In this document: positions 14,983 through 48,536 of the stretch, piece after piece
Numbering within the stretch: position 1 is the first letter of the stretch
Layout of the letters: every line of letters begins with the position of its first letter
NCBI RefSeq assembly: GCF_007991755.1
Contig: NZ_BJYY01000016.1
Coordinates: 1 to 64,000, forward strand
Reading direction: 5' to 3'
From: Cellulomonas aerilata
Lineage (GTDB): Bacteria; Actinomycetota; Actinomycetes; Actinomycetales; Cellulomonadaceae
DNA length: 64,000 nucleotides
Made by a program: the position numbers and the translations under genes
The notes under the pieces: generated by a model
The model's database searches: none
What the model was told of the DNA's origin: nothing
The model's input: the letters and a program-made list of their open reading frames with translations, nothing else

Positions 14983-17136
14983 GTGACCCCTGCACCCCGG
15001 CACCAGCGCTCGGCGCACGCAGCGGGCGACCCCCGCGCGCCGCGCCGCCCCCTGGCCCACCCCCGACGCCGCCCGCTGACGGCGCTGCTCGCGGCGCTCC
15101 TCGGCGCGCTGCTGGTCGCGCCGCCCGCCGCTGCGGTGCCGCCGATCGACGTCGCCGGCGTCGAGATCACCGACCGGGTCGGGGCCCTGTCCGGCTCCGA
15201 GGACGAGGTGCAGGCGGCGCAGAGCGCCCTGACCGCCGCCACCGGCGTGCAGCTGTACGCGGTGTTCGTCGACAGCTTCGACGGCGCCACCGGGGAGCAG
15301 TGGGCGGTGCAGTCCGCCCAGACCTCCGGGATCGGCAGCGACGACGTGCTGCTCGCGGTCGCCGTCGACGACCGCCAGTACGGCCTCGCCGTCGCCAACG
15401 ACCTCGGTCTGAGCGCCCAGGCGCAGAGCGAGATCCGGCGCACCGCCCTGGAGCCGCGGCTGGGCCAGGACGACTGGGCCGGCGCGGTCGTCGCGACCGC
15501 AGAGGCGCTGGAGTCGGCGGTGGCCGGCGGCGGGGCAGGCACCGGCACGGGCGGCACCGGTGGCACCGGCGCCGTCACCGGCCAGTCGTCCGGCGGCGGG
15601 TCGAGTTTCCTCACCTTCCTGCTGCTCGGTGCGGTCGCGCTGGGCGCCTTCCTGCTGTTCCGCACGTTCCGCAACCGCGGCCGCGCCGCCGCAGGCGCTG
15701 CCGGAGCGCCCGGACCGGACGGCGCCCCCGCACCGGAGCCGATCGACACCGCGACGCTGGACACGCGCGCGTCGGCGGCGCTGGTCCGGCTGGACGACGC
15801 CATCCGCGCGTCGGAGCAGGAGCTCGGGTTCGCGCAGGCCCAGTTCGGGCTCGAGGAGACCCGGCCGTTCGCCCAGGTCCTGGAGGCCGCGAAGAAGGAC
15901 GCCCTGCAGGCGTTCACGCTGCGCCAGCGGCTGGACGACGAGATCCCCGAGACCGAGGACGAGCGCCGGGCGATGCTGAGCCAGATCCTGCAGCTGTGCG
16001 GGCGGGCCGGCGCGGCGATCGACGAGCAGACCGAGGCCTTCGACGCCCTGCGCGACGTGCAGGCGCGCGCCCCGGAGCTGCTCGAGGACACCGACCGCCG
16101 CGCGTCGGAGATCGCGGCCCGCGTCCCGGCCGCCCAGAGCGCCCTGGAGTCGCTGCGCCGGACCTACCCGCCGGCCGCCCTGGCCTCGGTGTCCTCGAAC
16201 CCCGACCAGGCGGCCCAGCTGCTGCAGGCCGCGCACGAGTCGGTCGAGCAGGGACGCTCGGCCCTCGCGGGCAACGACCGCGCGGCCGCGGTGCTCGCCG
16301 TCCGGACCGCGGAGAACGCCGTCGCGCAGGCCGTCAGCCTGCTCGGGGCGGTGGACCGGGCCGGGCAGGAGCTCGCCGGGGCGTCGGCGGCGATCGCGTC
16401 CGGGATCGCGTCGCTCGGCTCCGACCTGGACGACGCCGCCCGCCTCGCCCCGCGCGACCCGGGTGTCCAGGCGGCGGCCATGCACGCCCGCGCGGTGCGT
16501 GACGCCGCGCGCTCGGCCGGGGCGGGCAGCGACCCGCTGGCCCTGCTGCGCGACCTGCGCGACGCCGAGACGGAGCTGGACCGGGCGCTGGAGCCCGCCC
16601 GCGGGCAGGCCGAGCAGGCCGACCGCGCCCGTCACCAGCTCGCGGACGCACTGGGCCCGGTCAGCTCGCGGGTGCGCGCCGTGACCGACTTCATCGACAC
16701 CCGCCGCGGCGCCGTCGGCCCCGAGGCGCGCACCCGGATCACCGAGGCGCAGCGCCTGCTGCACGAGGCCGAGTCGCTGCTGCGGTCCGACCCGGCGCGG
16801 GGACTGGCCATGGTCCAGCGGGCCGACCAGCTCGCCGGCGCGGCGCAGGCCATCGCCCAGCAGGACGTCGACGACTTCGAGCGCGACCGCTTCGGCGGGC
16901 CGGGCGGCTTCGGCGGCGGCGGCTACGGGCGCCGCGGCGGCGGCTTCGGTGGCGGCAACGCGGGCAGCCTCATCCTCGGCGGCATCCTCATCGACAGCGT
17001 GCTGCGCGGGGGCGGTGGTGGCTTCGGTGGCGGCGGCTTCGGCGGCGGCTGGGGCGGCGGTGGCGGCGGCTTCGGCGGCGGTGGCGGCGGCTTCGGTGAC
17101 GGCGGAGGCTTCGGGGGTGGTGGCGGCGACTTCTGA
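14983..17136 (+). CDS. TPM domain membrane protein with glycine-rich tail
   Basis: A 717-residue exported protein. A signal peptide with a long basic n-region ends near residue 52 (LTALLAALLGALLVAPPAAA). A TPM (TLP18.3/Psb32/MOLO-1) domain follows (VTDRVGAL-type start, then DDVLLAVAVDDRQYGLAVAN), then a Gly/Thr linker, a transmembrane helix near residues 208-224 (FLTFLLLGAVALGAFLLF), a long helical/coiled-coil region and a terminal tail of GGGFGG repeats. Start GTG 14983 has AAGGA seven bases upstream. The neighbour pspA encodes a membrane-stress protein, so an envelope role is likely; the molecular function is unknown. Confidence 0.85.
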   Translation: MTPAPRHQRSAHAAGDPRAPRRPLAHPRRRPLTALLAALLGALLVAPPAAAVPPIDVAGVEITDRVGALSGSEDEVQAAQSALTAATGVQLYAVFVDSFDGATGEQWAVQSAQTSGIGSDDVLLAVAVDDRQYGLAVANDLGLSAQAQSEIRRTALEPRLGQDDWAGAVVATAEALESAVAGGGAGTGTGGTGGTGAVTGQSSGGGSSFLTFLLLGAVALGAFLLFRTFRNRGRAAAGAAGAPGPDGAPAPEPIDTATLDTRASAALVRLDDAIRASEQELGFAQAQFGLEETRPFAQVLEAAKKDALQAFTLRQRLDDEIPETEDERRAMLSQILQLCGRAGAAIDEQTEAFDALRDVQARAPELLEDTDRRASEIAARVPAAQSALESLRRTYPPAALASVSSNPDQAAQLLQAAHESVEQGRSALAGNDRAAAVLAVRTAENAVAQAVSLLGAVDRAGQELAGASAAIASGIASLGSDLDDAARLAPRDPGVQAAAMHARAVRDAARSAGAGSDPLALLRDLRDAETELDRALEPARGQAEQADRARHQLADALGPVSSRVRAVTDFIDTRRGAVGPEARTRITEAQRLLHEAESLLRSDPARGLAMVQRADQLAGAAQAIAQQDVDDFERDRFGGPGGFGGGGYGRRGGGFGGGNAGSLILGGILIDSVLRGGGGGFGGGGFGGGWGGGGGGFGGGGGGFGDGGGFGGGGGDF

Positions 17137-17308: not shown

Positions 17309-18037
17309 ATGACCGAGAAGCAGACCATCCTCGGACGCATCACCCAGCTCACGCGCGCGAACATCAACGCGATGATCGACCGGGCCGAGGACCCGCAGCT
17401 GATGCTGGACCAGCTCATCCGCGACTTCACGAACTCGATCGCCGAGGCCGAGGGCGCGATCGCGCAGACGATCGGCAACCTGCGCCTGGCCGAGCAGGAC
17501 CACGCGGCCGACATCGCCGCCGCCAAGGAGTGGGGCGGCAAGGCGGCCGCTGCGTCCCAGCGCGCCGACACGCTGCGCGCGCAGGGCAGCACGGCCGACG
17601 CCGACAAGTTCGACAACCTGGCCAAGGTCGCCCTCGGCAAGCAGATCTCCTTCGAGCAGGAGGCCAAGGACGCCGAGCCCATGATCGCCTCGCAGACCGA
17701 GGTGGTCGACAAGCTCAAGGCCGGCCTGGCGAGCATGAAGGACAAGCTCGACGACCTGCGGCGCCGCCGCGACACCCTGGTCGCGCGCGCGAAGTCCGCC
17801 GAGGCCCAGTCCCGCGTCCAGGGCGCGGTGGCCTCGATCAACGTCCTGGACCCGACCAGCGAGGTCTCCCGTTTCGAGGACAAGGTCCGCCGCGAGGAGG
17901 CCCGCGTCGCCGGGCAGGCCGAGCTGCAGGCGTCGTCGCTGGACGCGCAGTTCGAGGAGCTGGAGGACTCCGCGGCCGACGCCGAGGTGGCCGCCCGCCT
18001 GGCCGCCCTCAAGGGTGGCGGCTCGACCGGCGTCTGA
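17309..18037 (+). CDS. pspA: PspA/IM30 family membrane-stress protein
   Basis: The 242-residue product is almost entirely helical, with an amphipathic N-terminal helix (TILGRITQLTRANINAMIDR) and the family signature DPQLMLDQLIRDFTNSIAEA. Long coiled-coil stretches follow (DKLKAGLASMKDKLDDLRRR) and a short Gly/Ser tail. PspA/IM30 (ESCRT-III-like) proteins oligomerise on damaged membranes and protect the proton motive force. A GAGAGG ribosome site precedes ATG 17309. It follows the TPM gene on the same strand with a 172-base gap and precedes the phased CGTCCC array and a two-component system, consistent with an envelope-stress neighbourhood. Confidence 0.93.
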   Translation: MTEKQTILGRITQLTRANINAMIDRAEDPQLMLDQLIRDFTNSIAEAEGAIAQTIGNLRLAEQDHAADIAAAKEWGGKAAAASQRADTLRAQGSTADADKFDNLAKVALGKQISFEQEAKDAEPMIASQTEVVDKLKAGLASMKDKLDDLRRRRDTLVARAKSAEAQSRVQGAVASINVLDPTSEVSRFEDKVRREEARVAGQAELQASSLDAQFEELEDSAADAEVAARLAALKGGGSTGV

Positions 18038-18096
18038 CGCCCGCACGCTGCGCCCCCGGCGCCGCGGCCTCGGCCGTCGGCTCCGGGGGCGCCGTG

Positions 18097-18256
18097 CGTC
18101 CGGACATGCCCGGACGTCCCGGTGCGTCCCGCGGACGTCCCGTCCCGTCCCTCGGCGTCCCCCGGGCGTCCCGCGGGGGTCCCGTCGCGTCCCGCGCCGT
18201 CCCCCGGCGTCCCCTGGGCGTCCCGTCGCGTCCCCCGGACGTCCCCCCTGCGTCCA
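18097..18256 (+). repeat. Helically phased CGTCCC direct-repeat array
   Basis: CGTCC(C) begins at 18097, 18115, 18125, 18136, 18146, 18156, 18167, 18188, 18198, 18208, 18219, 18229, 18240 and 18251, with a G-variant at about 18178 completing the series. From 18115 on, the steps are 10 or 11 bases, averaging about 10.5, one turn of B-DNA. The step is not a multiple of three, so it is not a coding repeat. The array fills the gap after pspA and stops about 40 bases before the predicted transcription start of the response regulator. The other strand is a run of G-tracts. Confidence 0.85.
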
Positions 18257-18290
18257 GCGAACTCCCAGCCCGCGGGACGACACTGGAGGC

Positions 18291-19034
18291 ATGACTTCTG
18301 CCGCCCCGACGTCCGAGGCGCGGCTCCTCGTGGTCGACGACGAGCCGCACATCCGCGAGCTGCTGGCCACGTCCCTGCGGTTCGCCGGGTTCGAGGTGCA
18401 CGCCGCCGCCGACGGCAACGGCGCCATGCGGCTCGCCCGTGAGGTCCAGCCGGACCTCATGGTGCTGGACGTCATGCTGCCCGACATGGACGGCTTCACC
18501 GTCACCCGCCGGCTGCGCGACTCGGGCCAGCACGTCCCGGTCCTCTTCCTCACCGCGCGCGACAACACCAGCGACAAGGTGACGGGGCTGACCGTCGGCG
18601 GTGACGACTACGTCACCAAGCCGTTCAGCCTCGAGGAGGTCGTCGCCCGCATCCGTGCCGTGCTGCGCCGCACCCAGGCCGAGCGCTCGGCCGACGACGC
18701 CGCCGTGCTGCGGGTGGCCGACCTGGAGCTGGACGAGGACAGCCACGACGTGCGCCGCGGGCGCCGGACCATCGAGCTGTCCCCGACCGAGTTCAAGCTG
18801 CTGCGCTACCTGATGCTCAACGCCGGACGGGTCCTGTCCAAGGCGCAGATCCTGGACCACGTCTGGGAGTACGACTGGGGCGGCGACGCCAACATCGTCG
18901 AGTCGTACATCTCCTACCTGCGGCGCAAGGTGGACGCCCCCGCCGCCTCCGCCGACGGCGCCCCCACCGTGCCGTTGATCCACACCAAGCGCGGGGTCGG
19001 CTACGTGCTCCGCCTGCCGCCGGGGACGTCGTGA
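18291..19034 (+). CDS. OmpR-family response regulator
   Basis: A 247-residue two-domain regulator. The receiver has acidic residues D16-D17, phospho-acceptor D60 (MVLDVMLPDMDG), T88 and K110 (DDYVTKPF). The winged-helix output domain (LSPTEFKLLRYLMLNAGRVL, then YISYLRRKVD and HTKRGVGYVL) is of OmpR/PhoB type. Start ATG 18291 is supported by a leaderless -10 (GACACT, 18279-18284) six bases upstream; the GGAGG between them is too close to act as a ribosome site. The stop overlaps the kinase start (GTGA). The phased array just upstream is a plausible target for autoregulation, which is inference. Confidence 0.95.
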   Translation: MTSAAPTSEARLLVVDDEPHIRELLATSLRFAGFEVHAAADGNGAMRLAREVQPDLMVLDVMLPDMDGFTVTRRLRDSGQHVPVLFLTARDNTSDKVTGLTVGGDDYVTKPFSLEEVVARIRAVLRRTQAERSADDAAVLRVADLELDEDSHDVRRGRRTIELSPTEFKLLRYLMLNAGRVLSKAQILDHVWEYDWGGDANIVESYISYLRRKVDAPAASADGAPTVPLIHTKRGVGYVLRLPPGTS

Positions 19035-20872
19035 GCACCGCTCCTCCCGAGGGCGCCCCGGGCGACGACGCCGGTCGTGACGCAGGGGACGTCGACGTCC
19101 GGCCCGCCGGCGCGGGGCCCGACGTCCGGCCCGCCGGGGCTGGGCCCGACGCCGTCCGGCCCGCCGGCGCAGGGCCCGACGGCGTCGACCACGACGCCCC
19201 CGTCCGACCGACGGTCGGCGAGCGACTGCGGGCGGTGCCGCTCGGTGCGCGGATGGTGGCGATCCTGTGCGCCGTCCTGCTGGTCGGGCTCACCGTCACC
19301 GGCGCCACCGCCCTCACCCTGCTGCGCCGCAACCTGGTCCAGCAGGTCGACGAGCAGATCCTCACCTACGCCCGGCCCCTCGTCCGCAAGGCGACGGGAT
19401 TCGACTCGCGCGGCCCGGGCGGCGGCGGCGACGACCGCCTGCCGAGCGACTACTACGTCGAGATCGTGGACGCCGCGGGGTCGACCGTCGGCGAGCCGGT
19501 CCGGGCGGACACCAGCAGCGCCGGTGCGCCGCGGCTGCCCGACCTCGGCCGGGCCGAGGTCCTCGACCGCGGCCAGCACCCGTTCACCGTGACGTCCACG
19601 CAGGGCCCCACGGACTGGCGCGCGATCGTCCTGCCCGCCGAGGACGAGTTCGGCGAGTACGCCGGCGCCGTGGCCATCGCGCTGCCCCTGACCGGGGTCG
19701 AGAAGACCCTCGCCGACATGCGCAAGGCCATCGTGCTCACCGGGCTGGCGGTCATCGCGCTCGGGTCCGTCGCCGGCTGGGTGGCCGTGCGCCGCTCGCT
19801 GCGGCCGCTGCAGGAGATGGAGGCGACGGCGGGCGCCATCGCCGCCGGGGACCTGACCCGCCGTGTCCCGCCCCGCCCGACGACCACCGAGGTCGGCCGG
19901 CTCTCGGCGGCGCTCAACGCGATGCTCGGGCACATCGAGCGCGCGTTCTCCGCCCGCGCCGCCTCCGAGGACCGCATGCGCCGGTTCGTAGCGGACGCCT
20001 CGCACGAGCTGCGCACCCCGCTGGCGACGATCCGGGGGTACGGCGAGCTGTACCGGATGGGCGCGCTGACGACCCCGCAGCAGGTCGACGACACCGTCCG
20101 GCGGATCGAGGAGTCCGCCACCCGGATGGGCCGGCTCGTCGAGGACCTGCTCGCGCTGGCCCGGCTCGACGAGGGCCGTCCGCTGCGCACCGAGGCCGTG
20201 GACCTGACCGTGGTCGCCGCCGACGCGCTGAGCGACCTGCGCGCCCTGGACCGCACCCGGTCGGTGCGGATCACCCCGGTGCCCGAGGGGGCCGAGCTGG
20301 GCGCGTGCGTCGTCGTCGGCGACGAGGACCGCCTGCGCCAGGTGCTGGCCAACCTCACCGGCAACGTCGTCCAGCACACACCCCCCGGCACCGCCGTCGA
20401 GATCGCGGTCGGTCGGCACTCGCCGGGGTGGGCGCTGGTCGAGGTCCGCGACCACGGCCCGGGCATCGCGCCGGAGCACGCCGCCCGCGTGTTCGAGCGG
20501 TTCTACCGGGTGGACGCGTCCCGGACCCGGGAGTCCGGCGGCGGCGCCGGGCTCGGCATGGCCATCGTCGCGGCGATCGTCGAGGCCCACCACGGCCGCG
20601 TCGAGCTGGCGCCGACACCCGGCGGCGGCACCACCGTCCGCGTGTGGCTGCCCACGTCGGCCGTCCCGCTCGGCCACGGCGACACGGACACCGGCCCGGC
20701 ACGGGCGGACGCCGGCGCGGCCGTCGCGCCGTCCCGCGGCGACGGTGGTCACCCGGGCACGGGCACCCCGATCGGTGCCGCTGCGGGCGCCGCGGACGCC
20801 CGCTCGGGTCGTCCGGCGGGCGGTGCCGCGGACGTCGGGGTCGAGGCGCTGCCGGTGGAGCACCGAGCCTGA
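19031..20872 (+). CDS. HAMP sensor histidine kinase
   Basis: A 613-residue sensor: a Pro/Ala/Gly cytoplasmic tail (1-70) with three DVRPAGAGP repeats, TM1 (about 75-97), an extracytoplasmic domain of about 130 residues, TM2 (about 232-253), HAMP, a HisKA helix with H325 in DASHELRTP, and an HATPase with NLTGNVVQHTP (N-box), DHGPGI (G1) and GAGLGMAIV (G2). A Gly/Ala-rich tail ends the protein. It is co-translated with the response regulator (GTGA overlap) and is its partner. Start GTG 19031 is set by that overlap; the low-complexity head leaves later starts possible. The signal is unknown. Confidence 0.93.
   Translation: MSTAPPEGAPGDDAGRDAGDVDVRPAGAGPDVRPAGAGPDAVRPAGAGPDGVDHDAPVRPTVGERLRAVPLGARMVAILCAVLLVGLTVTGATALTLLRRNLVQQVDEQILTYARPLVRKATGFDSRGPGGGGDDRLPSDYYVEIVDAAGSTVGEPVRADTSSAGAPRLPDLGRAEVLDRGQHPFTVTSTQGPTDWRAIVLPAEDEFGEYAGAVAIALPLTGVEKTLADMRKAIVLTGLAVIALGSVAGWVAVRRSLRPLQEMEATAGAIAAGDLTRRVPPRPTTTEVGRLSAALNAMLGHIERAFSARAASEDRMRRFVADASHELRTPLATIRGYGELYRMGALTTPQQVDDTVRRIEESATRMGRLVEDLLALARLDEGRPLRTEAVDLTVVAADALSDLRALDRTRSVRITPVPEGAELGACVVVGDEDRLRQVLANLTGNVVQHTPPGTAVEIAVGRHSPGWALVEVRDHGPGIAPEHAARVFERFYRVDASRTRESGGGAGLGMAIVAAIVEAHHGRVELAPTPGGGTTVRVWLPTSAVPLGHGDTDTGPARADAGAAVAPSRGDGGHPGTGTPIGAAAGAADARSGRPAGGAADVGVEALPVEHRA
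19094..19177 (+). repeat. In-frame tandem repeat in kinase N-terminus
   Basis: Three copies of a 27-30-base unit encode DVRPAGAGP, DVRPAGAGP and DAVRPAGAGP (residues 22-49) in the cytoplasmic tail ahead of TM1. Copy number could vary by slippage without breaking the frame. Confidence 0.7.
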
Positions 20873-47955: not shown

Positions 47956-47987
47956 ACCGCAGGGGTCGCGGGTCCGTTGGCCGCGAC

Positions 47988-48536
47988 ATGAGCGACACGA
48001 GCGACACGAGCGACACGAGTGACCTGGCCGACCACCCGTCCGCCGTCCGGCCCTCCGCGGTCCGCCAGCTCCGCCTGGTGGTGACCGCCGAGGACTGGGC
48101 GGCGGCCGTGGCGTTCTACCGGGACGCTCTCGGGCTGCCCGAGCTGGGCGCGTTCAGCGACCCCGACGGCCGGGTCGTCATCCTCGACGCGGGGCGGGCG
48201 ACCCTGGAGCTGACCGACCCGGCGCACGCGGCCTACGTCGACCGGGTCGAAGGCGTGCACCGTCCGGGTGCCGGGCCCGCGGGGCCCGCGGGACCGGTGG
48301 TGGCCGGGGCCGGGTCGGAGGTGGCCCCGGGGGCCCGGGTCCGGGTCGCGTTCGAGGTCACCGACGCGGTCGGTGCCACGCGGCGGCTGGAGGCGGCCGG
48401 CGCGCGGGTGGTCGCCGAGCCCGTCCGGACGCCCTGGGGCTCGCTCAACGCCCGGCTGGACGCACCGGCAGCGCTGGAGGTCACCCTCTTCGAGGAGCTG
48501 GGCGGGCCGGACGTCCCGGAGCCGCCCGGGTCCTGA
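47988..48536 (+). CDS. VOC (glyoxalase/bleomycin-resistance fold) family protein
   Basis: A 182-residue protein with paired beta-alpha-beta-beta-beta units: RLVVTAEDWAAAVAFYRDAL, then RVVILDAGRATLELTD, and the second unit VRVAFEVTDAVGATRRLEAA with NARLDAPAALEVTLFEEL. This is the vicinal-oxygen-chelate fold of glyoxalases, dioxygenases and binding proteins; the ligand is unknown. The start ATG 47988 opens with a nine-base repeat encoding SDT three times. A Gly/Pro linker joins the halves. It follows phoU by 32 bases but has no obvious ribosome site, and a functional link to phosphate control is not evident. Confidence 0.82.
   Translation: MSDTSDTSDTSDLADHPSAVRPSAVRQLRLVVTAEDWAAAVAFYRDALGLPELGAFSDPDGRVVILDAGRATLELTDPAHAAYVDRVEGVHRPGAGPAGPAGPVVAGAGSEVAPGARVRVAFEVTDAVGATRRLEAAGARVVAEPVRTPWGSLNARLDAPAALEVTLFEELGGPDVPEPPGS

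Follow-up and report, generated by a model that had tools for sequence, protein, structure and literature searches.

The window, a 64,000-nucleotide stretch of the 4.06-Mb genome of Cellulomonas aerilata, contains a pspA gene followed by a two-component operon encoding a response regulator and a sensor histidine kinase (Table 1). The regulator gene is separated from pspA by an intergenic gap of 253 bases, and the two genes are adjacent in all five genomes of the genus examined. The GC-rich hairpin behind pspA has 15-nt arms (18050-18064 and 18078-18092) with 93% complementarity, and the RNA of 18038-18104 folds with a predicted energy of -55.8 kcal/mol (z -5.8). We infer that this hairpin terminates pspA transcription.

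Several other repeats are observed in the window. Upstream of pspA, the gene of a TPM-domain protein has a tandem repeat at 17011-17133 that encodes a glycine-rich C-terminus. The coding sequence of the histidine kinase has tandem repeats near its 5' end, at 19081-19186, whose lengths of 27-30 bp are multiples of 3 and which translate to GPDVRPAGA-like repeats. Further away, positions 47983-48023 hold 4.6 copies of GCGACACGA with 93% matches.

Table 1. Positions of genes and sequence elements around the phased array (window coordinates)
Feature	Position	Strand	Remarks
pspA, PspA/IM30 family	17309..18037	+	Pfam PF04012, E=1.3e-33; gene upstream of the array
GC-rich hairpin, probable terminator without T tract	18050..18092	+	directly 3' of the pspA stop
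Outlying CGTCC	18097..18101	+	next copy 18 bases on; out of phase
Phased array, 14 units with GTCC(C) core, 10- or 11-base steps	18115..18255	+	-176 to -36 of the ATG
CGTCCC off phase within the array	18141..18146	+	steps 5 and 5
Candidate PhoP-type operator	18251..18268	+	distal CGTCCAGC 18251-18258; proximal CTCCCAG 18262-18268
-10 element GACACT, predicted leaderless promoter	18279..18284	+	orthologue consensus CACACT, fixed distance to the ATG
Response regulator, M. tuberculosis PhoP-type, OmpR/PhoB family	18291..19034	+	Pfam Response_reg and Trans_reg_C
Sensor histidine kinase	19031..20872	+	HAMP, HisKA, HATPase_c; overlaps the regulator stop

Phasing and rarity of the array

Fifteen copies of CGTCC are found in the 253-base gap, at 18097, 18115, 18125, 18136, 18141, 18146, 18156, 18167, 18188, 18198, 18208, 18219, 18229, 18240 and 18251. 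The first-pass annotation, made from the sequence alone, had described fourteen phased CGTCCC motifs. The hexamer in fact occurs 13 times, with twelve copies in phase and the one at 18141 half a turn off, and it is the shorter GTCC that establishes an unbroken phased chain of 14 units, from 18116 to 18255. The steps of this chain are 10, 11, 10, 10, 11, 11, 10, 10, 10, 11, 10, 11 and 11 bases (seven tens and six elevens); the search admitted steps of 10 or 11 only, and no unit is missing. Two units deviate from the hexamer, GGTCCC at 18178 and the final CGTCCA at 18251. The fitted period is 10.43 bases and the best period in a scan from 8 to 14 is 10.4, in agreement with the mean step of about 10.5 and the extent of about 140 bases given in that annotation. 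It had also placed the end of the array near -40; the final base of the last CGTCC lies at -36 relative to the ATG at 18291.

None of 2,000 dinucleotide-preserving shuffles of the gap, and likewise of the array alone, matches the observed phasing, so that the periodicity withstands the shuffling comparison originally proposed for it. The longest GTCC chain among the shuffles has three units for the gap and four for the array alone. Within the 64-kb window, chains of any 4-mer with at least seven units are confined to the array. We also scanned 812,168 bases of other loci, which overlap in part and include 60 chosen for short CGTCC or CGTCCC arrays, leaving out L001 and L061, which are the window itself; the longest comparable chain there has eight units, and the length of the array is indeed unusual. 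In the whole genome, three CGTCCC at steps of 10-11 bases give eight overlapping matches, all within the array, and the looser GTCCC triple gives 12, of which 11 lie in the array. A loose CGTCC pattern with steps of 9-12 bases has 54 matches in the genome, compared with 15 for a reversed control. The 10- and 11-base steps are not ordered in a way that favors phase, since 22% of shuffled orders keep it equally well.

The units occupy all three reading frames, and G+C varies little among codon positions across the array (0.80-0.87), without the pattern of pspA (0.71/0.45/0.98 at the three positions). We therefore reject a coding repeat, as had already been argued from the step size. The array is thus a real, rare and phased repeat, specific to its lineage. 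No such array is described in the titles and opening lines of abstracts of open-licence PMC papers, among the matches listed.

The regulator and its predicted operator

The regulator is composed of a receiver and a winged-helix domain. Its best matches in the PDB are chains of M. tuberculosis PhoP (E about 5e-85), and with PhoP as the closest solved relative it belongs to the M. tuberculosis PhoP type. To align the promoters, we searched 115 loci by tblastn, of which 46 contained the regulator, and removed seven duplicates to obtain 39; pspA is present in 18 of these 39 loci. The half-site profile was built from 38 promoters, leaving out the window's own. Aligned without gaps, these 38 promoters define TCCCAGG-N4-CTCCCAG, followed by CACACT and then by the ATG. 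The A and T of the -10 element and the ATG are co-positioned in all 38, which supports the leaderless start predicted for the regulator in the first-pass annotation.

CAG is found in 38/38 first and 37/38 second half-sites of these promoters, and the first step from CAG to CAG is 11 bp in 39 of 39, the window included. Further half-sites follow at 11 bp except for four steps of 10 or 12, in a count that prefers 11 on ties, and the number of half-sites ranges from two to four across species. Four CAG half-sites at 10-12 bp are present in L007, L010, L011, L015, L030 and L076.

In the window, the corresponding element reads CGTCCAG CGAA CTCCCAG, with 11 bp from CAG to CAG, and the final array unit doubles as its distal half-site. 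The two half-sites score 5.9 and 9.8 in the 38-promoter profile and the pair scores 15.7. This element is likely to be the operator of the regulator, located over the -35 region of the predicted leaderless promoter. With two mismatches allowed, the operator pattern occurs nine times in the window against 6.9 expected, no excess over chance, so the assignment rests on conservation at this position. The earlier remark that direct repeats at one helical turn suit OmpR-type regulators holds for this likely operator, which is built of such repeats.

Between the operator and the -10 element, at 18269-18279, we observe an exact inverted copy of the 11-base array unit at 18167-18177 (CCCGCGGGACG and CGTCCCGCGGG, respectively), and one GGGACG therefore faces the promoter. 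A search for a PhoP regulon with TCYCAGNNNNNTCYCAG, a pattern from which the operator in the window deviates, found nothing in the window's genome; of the four other genomes of the genus, three have one or two matches.

The operator of M. tuberculosis PhoP is described as a direct repeat, TCACAGC-N4-TCACAGC, with a strict 4-bp spacer, and shortening the spacer to 3 bp costs about 20-fold in binding (PMC4832192). The element at 18251-18268 is similar to it, with two direct half-sites at 11 bp and a CAG centre, and in the nearest relative, L002, the proximal half-site is exactly TCACAG, as in the M. tuberculosis site. The 13 units upstream, in contrast, lack CAG and follow mixed steps of 10 and 11 bp, and the 14 phased units in the window compare with the two to four half-sites of the orthologues. 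The recognition helix NIVESYISYLRRK is shared by 33 of the 39 regulators, including that of the window. The other six differ at a single residue, one by I to M and five by N to S. The Asn at the start of this helix is reported to contact bases in M. tuberculosis PhoP (PMC4832192). Ser replaces it in L015, L069, L070, L072 and L081, where the CAG half-sites are kept.

The first-pass annotation had proposed that the downstream regulator coats the array. Such a PhoP-type regulator would spread upstream from its operator over degenerate half-sites, and several observations are compatible with this. The final array unit is the distal half-site itself, the array phase continues into the operator (from GTCC at 18252 to CTCC at 18262), and orthologous promoters reach four half-sites 10-12 bp apart. 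M. tuberculosis PhoP is reported to bind rows of three or four motifs more tightly than pairs, and to bind the lpqA site still, although one of its halves is TCACcGC, with the A to C change also found in the array (PMC4832192); the Kd tabulated for lpqA is 347 (nM by context), whereas a perfect repeat is bound at about 19 nM (PMC4832192). The units themselves argue against it. CAG is absent from the plus strand of 18097-18250, and thus from the 13 units before 18251, while it is almost invariant in the half-sites of the other promoters. The 15 GTCC copies other than the operator's, the outlying and off-phase ones included, score from -10.2 to 0.3 at the best of five offsets. These scores exceed the window mean of -13.7 and are within the range of 2-28% of window positions, but even the best unit is far below the half-sites of the operator. 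Without the operator, the best pair within the array scores -6.2 with an 11-bp step and 0.4 with a 10-bp step. Moreover, a 10-bp step, the spacing that costs M. tuberculosis PhoP about 20-fold (PMC4832192), occurs 7 times among the 13, and the recognition helix is identical in 32 other orthologues that have no array. The missing CAG, the low scores and the mixed steps make coating by the regulator a weak proposal, which we regard as improbable; judged from these half-site scores, the regulator probably does not read the array well. On the minus strand, a good PhoP-type half-site, CGCCCAGG, with a score of 7.4, is found within the array at 18213-18220.

Distribution in related genomes

None of the 38 other orthologous promoters contains the array. 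They include four of the same genus, in which pspA and the regulator gene are neighbors separated by about 84 to 186 bases. No phased 4-mer chain of at least eight units is found in the orthologous promoter loci outside the window. The array belongs to one lineage among the genomes examined, a comparison of presence and absence between species with one genome for each. Orthologous gaps were the comparison on which the original proposal had been staked, and their lack of the motif argues against a conserved function.

Other tandem repeats are present upstream of the orthologous operator, GCGGG in 9.8 copies in L022 and a 29-bp unit in 2.3 copies in L072. These repeats are unrelated to the array, and the region thus tolerates repeats. 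L022 also contains a 40-bp repeat upstream of the operator.

At least one CGTCCC triple is found in 37 of 221 genomes of the family, with a maximum of five elsewhere and eight in the window's genome. Reversed-word control triples number three in the window's genome and up to 14 elsewhere. Four genomes with control matches were inspected: three contain long (CCCTG)n runs, one match is a perfect 10-base repeat, and one control triple overlaps with a CGTCCC array. Such runs among the control matches indicate that long GC-rich satellites occur in the family. Among the 30 CGTCCC-triple loci kept, a subset of the matches, none has the orthologous regulator or pspA. One locus, L174 (G029:C323), has a CGTCCC triple at about 7431 near a different response regulator, 40% identical to that of the window.

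Origin and possible roles of the array

We favor the interpretation of the array as an imperfect, probably young, lineage-specific promoter minisatellite, located between the pspA terminator and the PhoP-type operator, and give it a probability of about one half. This preference follows from an array that is unique in its genome for the pattern searched, is absent in the orthologues and has units unlike the half-sites. The highest-scoring solution of Tandem Repeats Finder has a 42-bp period, with 3.5 copies and 80% matches. In accordance with this period, spacers four units apart share 3.0 matches compared with 2.04 after shuffling (p=0.0014, or 0.0076 for the best of six lags). As the spacers recur every four units (42 bp), duplication of four-unit blocks is suggested, and the array consists of head-to-tail copies with a duplication history, as expected of a tandem repeat. 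The longest exact repeat, of 15 nt, is unexceptional given the cores and was reached in 189 of 500 simulations. We also considered a (CGTCC)n pentanucleotide ancestor and rejected it; the spacers show 17/52 GTCC matches, compared with 16.8 expected from shuffling.

As a minisatellite, the array would have grown by slippage or unequal exchange, through 10-11-bp units and later through 42-bp blocks, and would now occupy the DNA that separates the pspA terminator hairpin from the operator and promoter of the two-component operon. Transcription of the operon would be controlled by the two conserved half-sites at its downstream end, where a PhoP-type tandem dimer may bind over the -35 region and regulate its own synthesis. 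The array would then be at most variable upstream DNA that alters the strength or the spacing of the promoter.

This situation is reminiscent of the promoter tandem repeats of M. tuberculosis, which are described upstream of leaderless promoters, vary in copy number and have been proposed to alter promoter strength or spacing through these changes (PMC12817950). Like them, the array is a lineage-variable tandem repeat near a leaderless promoter in a GC-rich actinobacterium. The M. tuberculosis units are reported to be 54-58 bp long (PMC12817950), whereas the units of the array are 10-11 bp, one helical turn, and share a conserved core of 5 bp. What distinguishes the array from the M. tuberculosis promoter repeats is a unit one turn long whose core is intact.

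The core is also where the minisatellite interpretation meets its main difficulty. A neutral repeat should decay evenly along the unit, and the array does not, so the contrast between core and spacer counts against this interpretation. Among 13 units, the GTCCC columns contain no mismatch and the first column one, while the four spacer columns contain 19 (left-justified) or 23 (right-justified). Random scattering of the changes does not reproduce this contrast in any of 20,000 trials, a test that overstates constraint because duplications copy changes. When duplication is taken into account, the probability of the contrast by chance is 0.0003-0.001 for 15 independent spacer changes (the duplication-aware lower bound), 0.009-0.02 for 10 and 0.06-0.11 for 7. 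The evidence that the GTCCC core is constrained is thus moderate.

An interesting alternative is therefore a selected docking array, in which a DNA-binding protein would read GTCCC/GGGAC once per turn on one face of the helix over about 140 bp beside the PhoP-type operator, and would activate or silence the operon. The core is invariant in 13 of 13 units despite diverged spacers, and every step of the chain is 10 or 11 with no unit missing, in a search confined to these two steps. Known proteins offer partial precedents, as BldC is described to form filaments on direct repeats (PMC5859096) and PhoP to form tandem trimers and tetramers (PMC4832192). However, the array is found in none of the 38 other orthologous promoters, a single other GTCCC triple in the genome means that no regulon is visible, the succession of the steps is no better phased than random orders are, and the copy at 18141 is out of register by half a turn. 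We consider such an array possible but unlikely, although a stronger candidate than coating by the regulator. In its fuller form, a 14-site one-face array with a selected GTCCC core would have arisen in a single lineage, and a filament-forming protein would join the PhoP-type operator in a graded, enhancer-like switch; this we put forward as a doubtful proposal.

Two known operator types with similar architecture were compared with the array and rejected. MraZ boxes are GGG-containing direct repeats at 10 bp, and the array resembles them in its phased G-rich direct repeats. The genome's own mraZ promoter, however, contains three GTGGA at 10-bp steps, and the minus strand of the array reads GGGAC. 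BldC operators are likewise head-to-tail direct repeats in variable number, with AT-rich 9-bp repeats of the form AATTxxxxC as described (PMC5859096). The array differs in its 10-11-bp steps, and no AATT is present in 18097-18250.

An effect of DNA structure, with minus-strand G-quadruplexes or phased curvature modulating the promoter, was also considered. The first-pass annotation had named both, and the G-rich strand does stand out. The minus strand contains 14 runs of three or more G, about one per turn, and G4Hunter-type scoring gives -1.72 in 25 nt and -0.88 across 140 nt, values within roughly the top 0.2% of the window. It is this density of G-runs that keeps a quadruplex in consideration. 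The gaps between the runs, mostly 5-8 nt, are nevertheless long for a stable quadruplex, and a G-run or curvature element is not conserved in the orthologues. Curvature fared less well. In a rough wedge model, 8% of window positions have a net bend at least as large as that of the array, and strong curvature is not supported. Together, these structural explanations are very improbable.

The array could alternatively act in RNA, where its C-rich sequence with YC spacing would load Rho and so keep transcription of pspA from running on into the operator. The C/G ratio of the sense strand is 1.62 and the region lies directly 3' of the pspA hairpin. Rho sites avoid structured RNA, and the array RNA is structured (z -2.3). 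With a strong hairpin already behind pspA, both features make Rho loading unlikely, and the other orthologues have no array that could serve as a Rho site; of the explanations considered here, this is the least probable. A search of 17800-18500 for known RNA families gave only a sub-threshold match to mir-4599 inside pspA, with 25 bits compared with a gathering threshold of 100.

The significance of the minisatellite interpretation, as well as that of its main alternative, depends on the GTCCC core. A neutral array would clearly illustrate how repeats phased at one helical turn arise beside a conserved operator, and would caution that phased motifs have to be tested for conservation. With selection on the core, the array would stand out by the unusual length over which its units line up on one face of the DNA next to a two-component promoter, and would offer a natural system for studying how an autoregulatory switch is tuned by the number of its operators. 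In either case, the comparison yields a predicted PhoP-type operator and leaderless promoter common to 39 promoters of this group and its relatives.
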